From a virus, in the IMG/VR virus record IMGVR_UViG_3300035703_000294, positions 1 to 32,884 of that record: a DNA stretch of 32,884 bases. One strand, written 5' to 3'. Of the stretch, positions 13,909 to 31,160 are shown piece by piece. A program made the position numbers and the translations under genes. The notes under the pieces were generated by a model. That model searched no databases, was not told the origin of the DNA, and saw only the letters and a list, made by a program, of their open reading frames with translations. Within the stretch, counting starts at the first letter, position 1; every line of letters begins with the position of its first letter.

Positions 13909-14256
13909 ATGCCTGCCTCAATTCCAGTCCGCGCTATTGATCGCCTGCGTAAAGCAGCGAACTTGGAGCCGGTCAAAAAGCAAGTAGAGCTGTCTGACGG
14001 CAGCACCTTTGAAATGTGGGTGGCACCGCTGACGATGGCTGAGCGCGAACGCGCCCAAAAGCAAGCCAAGTCGGACGATGCCAACGCCTTCGCGCTTCAG
14101 CTGCTGATCACCAAAGCCCTCGACGAGAACGGCACCAAGCTGTTCAGCGCTGGCGAAATCGACGTGTTGAAAAACGAAGTCAAGGACAAGGATCTCCAAG
14201 CACTGATGCTGGCGATCCTGACTGACGATGCCGAGCCCATCGACCCCAAGAACTAG
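13909..14256 (+). CDS. Tail assembly chaperone, short form (gpG-like)
   Basis: A 115-residue protein with an AGGA 4 nt before the ATG. It is helical and charged, contains the strand pair VELSDGSTFEMWVAPLTMAE near residues 26-45, and ends DDAEPIDPKN. Position between tail tube and tape measure is where siphoviruses encode the G protein that coats the tape measure during tail assembly. Downstream the -1 frame stays open and looks coding, so a minor fraction should be extended by frameshifting (see 14250-14441). A TACAGT hexamer at 13880-13885 may serve as a -10 element. Confidence 0.82.
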   Translation: MPASIPVRAIDRLRKAANLEPVKKQVELSDGSTFEMWVAPLTMAERERAQKQAKSDDANAFALQLLITKALDENGTKLFSAGEIDVLKNEVKDKDLQALMLAILTDDAEPIDPKN

Positions 14257-28285: not shown

Positions 28286-28597
28286 ATGGCCACCACCTTT
28301 ACGTGGGGTATCAACACCCTGGAGCGCGAGACCGACGACGGTTTCGTGTTTACCGCTCACTACACCGTGGATGCCAATGACGGCACCTACTCCAGCGGCG
28401 CCTATGGCAGCGTGGGTTTCGAGCGCCCCGACAACCTCATCCCTTACAACCAACTTACGGAAGAGACCGTAATCGGCTGGGTCAAGGAAGCTCTCGGTGG
28501 TGACGAAAAAGTTGCCGAAATCGAGGCTGCTTTGCAGGAACAGCTCGATCAACAACGCAATCCCACCAAAGCCGCCGGCGTCCCTTGGGCCTCCTGA
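28286..28597 (+). CDS. DUF7936-like protein
   Basis: A 103-residue acidic protein. FTWGINTLERETDDGFVFTA and a YGSVGFERPDNLIPYNQLTE stretch resemble the DUF7936 type as I remember it, found in aquatic phages near structural genes. The second half is an amphipathic helix ending GVPWAS. Function is unknown. Codon use is C-ending, like the abundant capsid proteins, so it may be made in quantity. Upstream is an 84-nt gap with an imperfect inverted repeat (GCAACC/GGTTGC, 28224-28249). Confidence 0.78.
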   Translation: MATTFTWGINTLERETDDGFVFTAHYTVDANDGTYSSGAYGSVGFERPDNLIPYNQLTEETVIGWVKEALGGDEKVAEIEAALQEQLDQQRNPTKAAGVPWAS

Positions 28598-28859: not shown

Positions 28860-29111
28860 ATGGATCACTGTGACGAGGCACCGATTACTGCCAAGCCCCC
28901 CGACAACCCCTTTAACCAGGTCGTGCCAGCCCTGCTGACTGCTGCAGTCGTAGGTCTGGCCGGCCTTTTTATGCAAGTCGCCAAGCTGGATCAGTCCGTC
29001 AGCACCGTGGCCGCCGACATCCAAGAACTCAAGAACGACTCAAAAGAAAGGCTTAGTGATCTCGAAAGCAGAGTCCGCCATATTGAAATGACTGTCGGCA
29101 CTAAAAAATGA
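28860..29111 (+). CDS. Membrane-anchored coiled-coil protein, holin-like
   Basis: An 83-residue protein: short acidic cytoplasmic N-terminus, one transmembrane segment (about 22-41, VPALLTAAVVGLAGLFMQVA), then a heptad-type helix to the C-terminus (LDQSVSTVAADIQELKNDSK, then ERLSDLESRVRHIEM). The reverse layout (coil then membrane helix) is known for XhlA-type lysis proteins. The position before the endolysin suggests a holin, antiholin or spanin, but only one membrane segment is visible. Its stop overlaps the next start in ATGA. Confidence 0.65.
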   Translation: MDHCDEAPITAKPPDNPFNQVVPALLTAAVVGLAGLFMQVAKLDQSVSTVAADIQELKNDSKERLSDLESRVRHIEMTVGTKK

Positions 29112-29290
29112 GCGTCGTCCACAGCACTGACTACGGCAACGGCTACGTCCTCGATCAGCTGGAGAATGAACGGGGCGAACTGTACTACCGCGCCTGCAAG
29201 GGCAGCATCTGCCGTTACGCTGAAGACCACTACATCGCAATGATGTATTTAGAAGGCATGGGCTGGGACCCTAAAGCAGACCCCCAGTGA
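29108..29290 (+). CDS. Small hypothetical protein
   Basis: A 60-residue protein coupled by ATGA to its upstream neighbour. It is Tyr-rich and acidic (STDYGNGYVLDQLENERGEL, YYRAC, then CRYAEDHYIAMMYLEGMGWD), with two Cys five residues apart. There is no membrane segment. No family is recognised. Its last 20 nt overlap the end of the convergent HNH gene, and no terminator lies between. Confidence 0.58.
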   Translation: MSVVHSTDYGNGYVLDQLENERGELYYRACKGSICRYAEDHYIAMMYLEGMGWDPKADPQ

Positions 29291-29606
29291 TCCACTGCAC
29301 AATCGCATCCTCCCGATGCGGTTCCCAAAACGGCTGGTTTCTGTACCACTCAATCCAGTCCTCCGCCGACTTCGAGATATTGCAGCCAAAACAGCAGGCC
29401 ACAAGGTTTTGCTGGTGCGTATGACCCCCACGAATTTTGGGATGCACGTGATCCAGCGTCGCAGAACGCCCCAAATCCGCATCACAGTAGGCGCACTTAT
29501 TGCGCCAATGATTAAGGATTGATTGCCGAAAACGCGCCTTTGCTTCTTTTTTGTTTAAGTATTCGCCATCTTCGATGCGATGGTCCATACCCAGCAGTGG
29601 CTCCAC
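29271..29606 (-). CDS. HNH endonuclease
   Basis: A 111-residue protein (an ATG at 29588 would give 105). It has a classical zinc-stabilised HNH: Cys38-x-x-Cys41 (CAYC), Asp52-His53 (LDHVHP), Asn67 (QQNLV) and Cys72-x-x-Cys75 followed by Asn76 (CFGCN). It would nick or cut DNA with a divalent metal. The gene points against its neighbours and its end overlaps the convergent gene by 20 nt. A free-standing (homing-type) nuclease is likely; a packaging-associated HNH would normally sit next to the terminase, which is far away here. Confidence 0.85.
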   Translation of the reverse strand: MEPLLGMDHRIEDGEYLNKKEAKARFRQSILNHWRNKCAYCDADLGRSATLDHVHPKIRGGHTHQQNLVACCFGCNISKSAEDWIEWYRNQPFWEPHREDAIVQWITGGLL

Positions 29607-29665: not shown

Positions 29666-29687
29666 TTGGCAAGAATCCTTATTTGCC

Positions 29688-29828
29688 ATGGATTTCATCC
29701 AGCATCCAGCCTTCTGGATCGTGGTCGCCGCAGCTTCAGAGCTGATCGCCCTTTCCCCTCTCAAAGACAACAGCATCATCCAGCTGGTGTTCCACGCCCT
29801 TCGCGCCATCAAGGGAAAAAAGCTCTAG
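29688..29828 (+). CDS. Small membrane-type protein, zero-frame product
   Basis: A 46-residue ORF starting with ATG at 29688. A hydrophobic segment (about 5-22, HPAFWIVVAAASELIALS) is followed by SPLKDNSIIQLVFHALRAIK and a basic end GKKL. One short membrane helix plus an amphipathic helix fits a holin-like or membrane-associated accessory of the adjacent endolysin. Close to its stop it contains A AAA AAG in frame (29816-29822), and the -1 frame beyond is open for 78 codons, so this is probably the short form of a frameshifted pair. The family is not firmly recognised. Confidence 0.68.
   Translation: MDFIQHPAFWIVVAAASELIALSPLKDNSIIQLVFHALRAIKGKKL
29816..29822 (+). promoter_or_regulatory. Slippery heptamer A AAA AAG
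   Basis: Six A and a G in the zero-frame register A AAA AAG, the canonical bacterial -1 slip site at which both tRNA-Lys re-pair fully. It lies 3 nt before the zero-frame TAG (29826-29828). Confidence 0.65.
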
Positions 29829-30058
29829 GCAAAACTTGGGAGCAAGCTGTACGGGAGTGGTGGTTTGAGCTACTACTCCCAAGCAAGCTCGACCAAGCGG
29901 AAGCCGCTTGGCACGCAACGCAACCATCTGATCCAGAGCCTGTGATCGTGCATCACAAAATTGATGATCAGCTCCAAACCGGCGAAAGCCGCCTTCTGGG
30001 TGGCGCCATGAGTATCCACGCCCCTTGGTCCGATGGCAACCAACAAGATCCGCCTTAA
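29822..30058 (+). CDS. -1 frameshift extension of the 29688 gene
   Basis: After a -1 slip at 29816-29822 the frame continues for 78 residues to the TAA at 30056-30058, giving a 123-residue fusion with the 45 upstream residues. It reads ALGKTWEQAVREWWFELLLP, then SKLDQAEAAWHATQ and a Pro/Asp-rich, His-containing end. There is no ATG, GTG or TTG in this frame between the slip site and residue 41 (GTG at 29942), so a separate gene would lose the most protein-like part. The stretch would otherwise be an unexplained 200-nt gap. The last 26 nt overlap the endolysin start, indicating coupling. Function is unknown; a lysis regulator is a guess. Confidence 0.6.
   Translation, partial: ALGKTWEQAVREWWFELLLPSKLDQAEAAWHATQPSDPEPVIVHHKIDDQLQTGESRLLGGAMSIHAPWSDGNQQDPP
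29835..29883 (+). promoter_or_regulatory. Inverted repeat downstream of the slip site
   Basis: CTTGGGAG (29835-29842) and CTCCCAAG (29876-29883) are a perfect 8-bp inverted repeat with a 33-nt loop, starting 12 nt after the slippery heptamer. It could form a stimulatory hairpin or part of a pseudoknot; 12 nt is slightly longer than the usual spacing. Confidence 0.45.
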
Positions 30059-31160
30059 CGACTTATTCCGGTTCTACAAGGCGCTGCCCCACCAAATGGC
30101 CGCCATCACAGAACTGGAAGCAGCCATCAACAAGGCCAACCCCCACATCCTGGGCCGAGACCAAGGCTGGTTCAAAACCTGGAGCGTCGCAGGTAAACAA
30201 ACTAACTTTGCTAACAGCTGGGAAGGCATCCTCGAAGCCGCCCGAGTTGCTGGAGCAAAATTTCCAGAACTGGTGGCTGCCCAGTGGGCACTGGAATCAA
30301 ATTACGGAAAACTTGTCTCAGGCCGCAATAACTTCTTCGGACTAAAAGGCGAAGGTAGCGACAAGAAAACACAGGAATTTATCAACGGCCAGTGGATCAC
30401 AATTACCGACAGCTTCATCGACTTCCCCGATTTGCTGTCATGCGTAATGTATCTCGTCGACCACTGGTATAAAGATTACAAAAACTACAAAGGTTGCAAT
30501 AACGCAACCACCCGCGAAGAGGCCGCTAAGTGGTTGCACAAGGAAGGTTACGCAACAGACCCCAACTACCCAGGCAAGCTGATCCAACTGATGGACCAGC
30601 ACGCTGGTACGAAACCACTGGTTCCGGCAAAAGAAAAAATCCTCAAAGTTGCCTACGAGTATCAGCTCGGTAGTGATGACGGCCCCACCGGCTGGCGCCA
30701 ATGCTTCAGTTCCAGCTGCGCCATGGTGGCCCGCTACTACGGAAAAATCTCAGGAGATTATGAGTACAACAAAATCCGCGCCCGCTTCGGCGACACAACC
30801 GACCCAAAAGCGCAGATTGCGGCATTGAAATCACTGGGACTGAACGCCACCTTCGAGATGGATGGCACAGTCGAGGACTTGGAAAACGAAATCACCCACG
30901 GCCACCCAGTTCCAGTCGGCTGGTTACACAAAGGACCAGTAAGTAACCCGAGCGGTACTGGCCACTGGAGTGTAGTCATTGGATATACACCGACGCACTT
31001 CATCCACAATGATCCGTTCGGCGAGGCAAATCTGACTGCTGGCGGCTACGTCAGTAACAAGGGAGGCGCGGGCATCGCGTACTCCCGCAAGAACTGGCTG
31101 CCTCGCTGGCTCATCGAAGGCAACGACACGGGCTGGTTCATGCGTATCCGCCCGAGGTAA
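30033..31160 (+). CDS. Two-domain endolysin: glucosaminidase plus C39-like peptidase
   Basis: A 375-residue lysis enzyme without signal peptide. Residues about 60-190 are a glucosaminidase (LYZ2-like) domain: FPELVAAQWALESNYGK with predicted catalytic Glu88, NNFFGLKG, and the end AAKWLHKEGYATDPNYPGKL. Residues about 202-375 look like a C39-type papain-fold peptidase: QCFSSSC (Cys224), GHWSVVIGY (His311) and IHNDPFG (Asn326/Asp327). It would cut glycan strands and peptide cross-links. Start at the ATG at 30033, overlapping the frameshift extension by 26 nt. Lack of a signal peptide means export needs a holin, so the nearby small membrane proteins are candidates. Confidence 0.88.
   Translation: MATNKIRLNDLFRFYKALPHQMAAITELEAAINKANPHILGRDQGWFKTWSVAGKQTNFANSWEGILEAARVAGAKFPELVAAQWALESNYGKLVSGRNNFFGLKGEGSDKKTQEFINGQWITITDSFIDFPDLLSCVMYLVDHWYKDYKNYKGCNNATTREEAAKWLHKEGYATDPNYPGKLIQLMDQHAGTKPLVPAKEKILKVAYEYQLGSDDGPTGWRQCFSSSCAMVARYYGKISGDYEYNKIRARFGDTTDPKAQIAALKSLGLNATFEMDGTVEDLENEITHGHPVPVGWLHKGPVSNPSGTGHWSVVIGYTPTHFIHNDPFGEANLTAGGYVSNKGGAGIAYSRKNWLPRWLIEGNDTGWFMRIRPR

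Follow-up and report, generated by a model that had tools for sequence, protein, structure and literature searches.

Canonical programmed -1 ribosomal frameshifting in bacteria, as at the A AAA AAG site of dnaX (PMC5009743), takes place at an X XXY YYZ heptamer lying in register near the 0-frame stop codon and yields two products from one N-terminus. The heptamers A AAA AAG, G GGA AAG and C CCA AAG are all highly shift-prone in E. coli (review PMC5009743), and an internal Shine-Dalgarno stimulator is present in only some programmed -1 frameshift genes. The cyanophage gene described here resembles this system in the register and position of its heptamer, in its two predicted products and in its use of these main heptamers, but its site has no upstream Shine-Dalgarno stimulator and its downstream structure is unproven. 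Among phages the obvious comparison is the lambda G/GT tail chaperone, where a small gene likewise gains a C-terminal part through a shift close to its end. However, the cyanophage gene adjoins a cell-wall hydrolase gene rather than a tape-measure gene, encodes a membrane-type N-terminus and gave no match to a tail-chaperone family. The lambda S dual-product holin offers a different parallel, being a small membrane-type gene of the lysis region with two products that have a membrane part in common, although the cyanophage products would differ at the C-terminus through a frameshift rather than through two starts, and they match no holin family. Finally, the holin gene 17.5 of T7 lies between the tail fibre and small terminase genes, and in T7-like relatives the cyanophage gene occupies the same place.

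The window, meaning the whole stretch of DNA that was analysed, comprises positions 1 to 32,884 (32,884 bases) of the IMG/VR virus record IMGVR_UViG_3300035703_000294; nearly all named relatives of its lysis-region locus are Synechococcus phages. The features of that locus are as follows.

28860-29111, + strand: gene for a protein of 83 aa that has a coiled coil and a single membrane helix
29688-29828, + strand: 0-frame open reading frame of 46 aa, the putative short product, sequence MDFIQHPAFWIVVAAASELIALSPLKDNSIIQLVFHALRAIKGKKL
29816-29822, + strand: slippery heptamer A AAA AAG, in register within the 0-frame codons GGA AAA AAG CTC TAG
29822-30058, + strand: -1-frame extension of 78 codons plus stop, reading ALGKTW...QQDPP
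29826-29828, + strand: 0-frame stop codon TAG, one codon 3' of the heptamer
29835-29842 with 29876-29883, + strand: 8-bp inverted repeat, CTTGGGAG with CTCCCAAG
29853-29880, + strand: stable hairpin predicted by RNA folding, arms 29853-29864 and 29869-29880
30033-31160, + strand: endolysin with glucosaminidase and C39-like peptidase domains, from domain matches

Translation of the window gives a long product of 123 aa, consisting of residues 1-45 of the 46-aa reading frame and the 78 residues of the extension, whose end (30058) overlaps the start of the endolysin gene (30033). An earlier note, made without database searches, had described the reading frame, heptamer, stop codon, -1 frame, endolysin overlap and 8-bp repeat, and all of these held at the positions it gave. 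Its larger claim, a programmed frameshift with products of 46 and 123 aa, is strongly supported by comparison, no protein having been seen directly.

In the mechanism proposed, ribosomes would start at 29688 and most would stop at 29826, releasing a helical-hairpin protein of 46 aa whose membrane helix is borderline. A fraction would slip back one base at A AAA AAG (AAA-AAG to AAA-AAA) and read past the stop codon for 78 more residues; the resulting 123-aa protein would share the membrane-type N-terminus but carry a distinct tail. A programmed -1 ribosomal frameshift in this cyanophage gene is very probable on comparative grounds, in the absence of protein, ribosome-profiling or reporter data. 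What comparison supports is the heptamer, the frame, selection on both products and the absence of another start; slippage in infected cells, its rate and any help from downstream RNA structure are inferred.

The arrangement is rare outside this gene. Of 210 plus-strand stop-to-stop reading frames of at least 40 aa in the window, the 46-aa frame alone has an in-frame heptamer among its last codons together with at least 45 open -1 codons beyond it. Among other reading frames in the contigs of relatives, 18 of 6695 pass a loose form of this test, none of the 18 with A AAA AAG.

Several neighbouring or similar genes in the window deserve separate mention. A tail-chaperone-like gene precedes the tape-measure gene (13909-14256) and ends in the codons GAC CCC AAG AAC TAG; C CCC AAG lies at 14244-14250 and the -1 frame runs on for about 60 codons, to about 14440. 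Judged from sequence alone, this is likely an ordinary G/GT-type frameshift at a non-canonical site. On the minus strand, an HNH endonuclease gene (29271-29606) lies between a 60-aa reading frame and the frameshift gene. In most relatives the HNH gene is absent and the frameshift gene is directly preceded by the gene of a small protein that has a membrane helix and a coiled coil; the HNH gene may be a mobile insertion. A DUF7936 gene (PHROG 7802; 28286-28597), common to T7-like cyanophages such as S-CBP3, lies 5' of the lysis region. A YYRxCxxxxCRYxED stretch occurs in small reading frames both upstream of the frameshift gene in the window (29108-29290) and downstream of it in a relative (L363 3385-3576), and no family match was found for either.

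Evidence for programmed frameshifting comes from the behaviour of the heptamer among relatives. With the 123-aa fusion as query, 132 relatives were found in IMG/VR, and in 79 of the 80 best, which were inspected for the site, the 0-frame stops one codon past a canonical heptamer, with 50 to 86 open -1 codons following in nearly all; the exceptions and variants within this set are G AAA AAG (L040) and C CCA AAG (L081). A wider set drawn from IMG/VR and named phages with an N-terminal profile and divergent members as queries comprised 430 loci with the N-terminus, 221 of them distinct. Where the downstream frame is complete, heptamer and extension occur together in 195 loci and both are missing in 17; two have an extension without the heptamer and none a heptamer without the extension. 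The heptamer is accordingly kept in 195 of 197 loci with an extension, and 17 of the 19 without it also lack the extension. Because these searches had begun from the N-terminus or the whole fusion, a reverse search was made with the C-terminal end of the extension alone, and here too an in-frame heptamer, with a 0-frame stop no more than four codons beyond it, was present in 54 of 55 distinct loci.

The heptamer itself changes among relatives only to other canonical heptamers (A AAA AAG 157, G GGA AAG 16, C CCA AAG 8, A AAA AAC 1). It is conserved beyond what the protein needs, given that the third base before AAA AAG is A in 157 of 157 cases across eight amino acids: Gly, Ala, Pro, Ser, Gln, Val, Thr and Glu, encoded by GGA, GCA, CCA, TCA, CAA, GTA, ACA and GAA. 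Elsewhere in the same genes glycine is encoded by GGC 62 times, GGT 18, GGG 10 and GGA only 8. The 0-frame stop of relatives falls one codon past the heptamer or immediately after it, yet it may be TGA (95), TAG (43) or TAA (19); since the position is held while the codon varies, the ending of the short product also appears to be maintained. Extensions of the types GWQRRLE, RWLLRFSTR and LKPN sit behind different heptamers (L377 and L378 as against other G GGA AAG loci), a pattern suggesting that extension modules could have been swapped at the slip junction.

The extension evolves as a protein, and in the -1 frame only. For the close group, that frame gives a dN/dS of 0.13, the two others 1.7, and the 46-aa 0-frame gene 0.06. 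The -1 frame as far as codon +12 is free of ATG, GTG and TTG in 125 of 182 relatives; among the remainder no conserved start position was found. The extension is predicted to form a long helix followed by two strands with a conserved I-x-[AS]-P-W motif, represented in the window by SIHAPW close to the C-terminus. Scanning its members revealed no Pfam or PHROG family, and the PDB returned no match to the tail, whether searched by fold or by sequence. The tail domain has 417 confirmed matches in cyanophage contigs. The earlier note had called this tail soluble, which is a weak part of its description, the side of the membrane on which it would lie being unknown. In two named phages the extension is annotated as a separate protein, S-CBS3 gp22 (L099 2686-2853) and S-EIVl AHV82131 (L100 2671-2907). 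Each is an internal-start piece of the -1-frame extension and, as the annotated starts fall inside the conserved extension, both annotations are likely wrong.

The Oinezvirus group, which lacks the heptamer, served as a control. Its members have an open -1 frame of 52 codons that was considered as a diverged extension and rejected: dN/dS is 2.6 in this frame and 0.14 on the opposite strand, the substitution pattern of antisense coding. The pattern points to an opposite-strand coding gene just downstream of the 46-aa homologue in this group (L103 2640-2800 and relatives), unannotated in AP013546.

Three outcomes had been named in advance by the earlier note as refuting its claim. Loss of the heptamer in close relatives and failure of the -1 frame to be conserved were not seen, as the counts and dN/dS values above make plain. 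A downstream part with its own start is absent from heptamer-bearing relatives and found only in two distant lineages without the heptamer, S-CBS2 and a Cyanobium contig (L190). The claim that no usable start lies near the beginning of the extension held in relatives; the window itself has an open -1 frame 5' of the junction back to a TTG at 29666, although among 182 relatives only 32 keep it open beyond the gene start, with no conserved start.

Whether RNA structure assists the slip is less clear. The region 29810-29900, proposed by the earlier note for folding, is indeed predicted to fold strongly (-34.7 kcal/mol, z -3.6), and in 74 representatives folding just past the heptamer exceeds that of shuffles with synonymous codons (mean z -1.45; no representative above +1), an excess that fades to z -0.34 at 126 nt. 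The particular hairpin that note had proposed, the 8-bp repeat, failed as a conserved stimulator: it is peculiar to this genome, one of its pairs being broken in 26 of 31 close relatives. It competes with the 12-bp hairpin at 29853-29880, for which 85% of cells are paired in close relatives, without covariation there. More generally, no clear covariation supporting a downstream structure and no RNA structure common to the different extension types was found, and a Shine-Dalgarno-like motif 7-18 nt upstream of the heptamer occurs in 0 of 182 relatives. A structural stimulator downstream of the heptamer is therefore likely on the folding excess alone, and has not been shown.

Other cyanophages join, separate or dispense with the same parts. 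In S-CBS2 a related hairpin gene, gp049, is followed as here by the tail domain, gp048, in the -1 frame; in contrast to the window there is no heptamer, and gp048 starts at a GTG of its own that overlaps the stop (TAGTG). A GTG also overlaps the stop in the Cyanobium contig L190 (AAGTGATC), which has no canonical heptamer. C CCC AAG does lie ahead of the stop there, and slippage in this contig remains a possibility. In T4-like cyanophages (PHROG 3316; S-PM2p161 and relatives) the tail domain forms part of one uninterrupted membrane-protein gene adjoining lysozyme or endolysin genes, so that the search for homologues in a single reading frame, suggested by the earlier note, did find them for the extension domain, with a membrane segment of their own. 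The extension is homologous to the C-terminal part of these proteins: it aligns with the C-terminal (APW) domain of PHROG 3316 over the C-terminal about 55 columns (hhalign 95.5%, E 1.5e-8), and Foldseek relates the tail to Q5GQH8 (E 7e-3, prob 1.00). Both kinds of protein have an N-terminal membrane segment and a C-terminal domain ending LGG-x-[MI]-R-L-x-[AS]-P-W, but no relation of the PHROG 3316 membrane segment to the 46-aa hairpin could be detected. S-PM2p161 was also considered as a lipoprotein or spanin; its lipobox-like LSSC is not retained in its relatives, and no spanin claim is made.

The 0-frame family occurs without any extension in P60, S-CBP1/3/4, S-CBS4, the Oinezvirus group and one microvirus. 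In S-CBP4 the hairpin gene lies in the lysis region without an extension, and the tail domain is encoded by a second, distant gene; that gene, S-CBP4_0049 (L522 1387-1683), lies far from the lysis genes, and the tail-domain protein it encodes has a hydrophobic stretch of its own. The microvirus case is an unannotated small reading frame resembling the 46-aa protein (L107 2492-2626; MH572431, Microviridae; SEIIALTPLKSNSIFQLL). Little is known of lysis genes in this group, and the frame may be a candidate for one.

What the two products do is the more difficult question. The 46-aa protein matches PHROG 22542, of unknown function (E 2.6e-30). AlphaFold predicts helices at residues 7-22 and 29-43 (mean pLDDT 85.6), and the best 19-residue hydropathy, 1.65 at residue 7, marks the first as a borderline membrane helix. 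A fold search of this model against viral structures gave no match, and no similarity of the products to known holin or spanin families was found. The neighbourhood is more informative. The frameshift gene precedes a cell-wall hydrolase gene in most relatives, and in 58 representative loci the hydrolase directly following belongs to one similarity cluster. A lysis role is favoured because of these hydrolase neighbours, the 17.5-like position in T7-like relatives and the lysozyme or endolysin neighbours of the T4-like homologues. In this reading both forms would act in lysis, the short one holin-like and the long one its minor partner, modifying or tethering it, a proposal that could as readily prove wrong as right; it is inferred from position and predicted membrane helices, and no lysis activity has been shown.

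The rival that survives best accepts the frameshift and disputes only its purpose: the products might instead be membrane proteins with some other late role, such as superinfection exclusion, a change in the host membrane, or virion assembly or release. It stands on much the same footing as the lysis reading. In its favour are the lack of likeness to known lysis proteins, the S-CBP4 tail-domain gene far from lysis genes, three T7-like phages (L104-L106) in which the next genes are not endolysin, and a membrane helix that is merely borderline. Against it stand the hydrolase of a single cluster next in 58 representative loci, the T4-like cyanophages, whose tail domain is independently linked to lysozyme or endolysin genes, and the position of the 0-frame family beside lysozymes in S-CBP3 and S-CBS4, both without the extension.

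The remaining rivals concern the frameshift itself, and they fare far worse. The tail could be a separate overlapping gene, translated from an internal start or after reinitiation at the 0-frame stop, with the heptamer incidental. S-CBS2 and L190, with GTG over the stop and no canonical heptamer, fit this account, as does the TTG at 29666, from which the whole -1 frame of the window is open. However, the junction and its vicinity contain no start codon in most heptamer-bearing relatives, the A before AAA AAG is held across eight amino acids, the heptamer changes solely to other canonical heptamers, and the annotated S-CBS3 and S-EIVl starts fall inside the conserved extension. As a general explanation this is very improbable and was rejected for heptamer-bearing relatives; it is kept for S-CBS2 and possibly L190. 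Alternatively, RNA polymerase might slip on the A run, leaving a share of transcripts frame-shifted. A6G is indeed a short homopolymer run, although G GGA AAG (16) and C CCA AAG (8) have no run longer than 3 and retain the same extension and stop geometry; six A's are in any case shorter than the runs usually needed for transcriptional slippage. This too is highly unlikely, and it is excluded for lineages whose site has no A run. A broken gene or a sequencing error as the source of the two frames is all but ruled out, for although a one-base indel would also give two overlapping frames, the arrangement recurs across many samples, in 195 distinct sequences that include seven named phages, with selection maintained on both frames.

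Programmed ribosomal frameshifting is thus the preferred reading, and the locus is one of the clearer comparative cases of a mechanism that, like its heptamers, is classical. What is new is the gene family, its place, and the interchangeable solutions by which the parts are combined: a frameshift, an overlapping gene, or a single gene with another anchor. No paper on frameshifting in a cyanophage lysis region was found in the literature searched, most subscription journals being outside its scope, and the family and its genome position are undescribed in the papers that could be searched. A bolder reading holds that the gene is a built-in control of lysis in which slippage, rather than two starts, sets a fixed ratio of short to long product, serving siphoviruses and T7-like viruses of picocyanobacteria alike, the T4-like viruses supplying the tail from a separate membrane protein. 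Taken as one joint claim, it is plausible and rather more apt to fail than to hold.

Annotations of named phages either miss the extension or split it off as a false separate gene, and a protein has been overlooked in at least hundreds of cyanophage contigs. Orthologous sites with three different heptamers constitute a natural set for studying frameshifting in cyanobacteria. The hosts are abundant picocyanobacteria, and the lysis proteins of their viruses, endolysins apart, appear poorly known. If both products do act in lysis, the gene would represent a new way of obtaining two lysis proteins from one gene.
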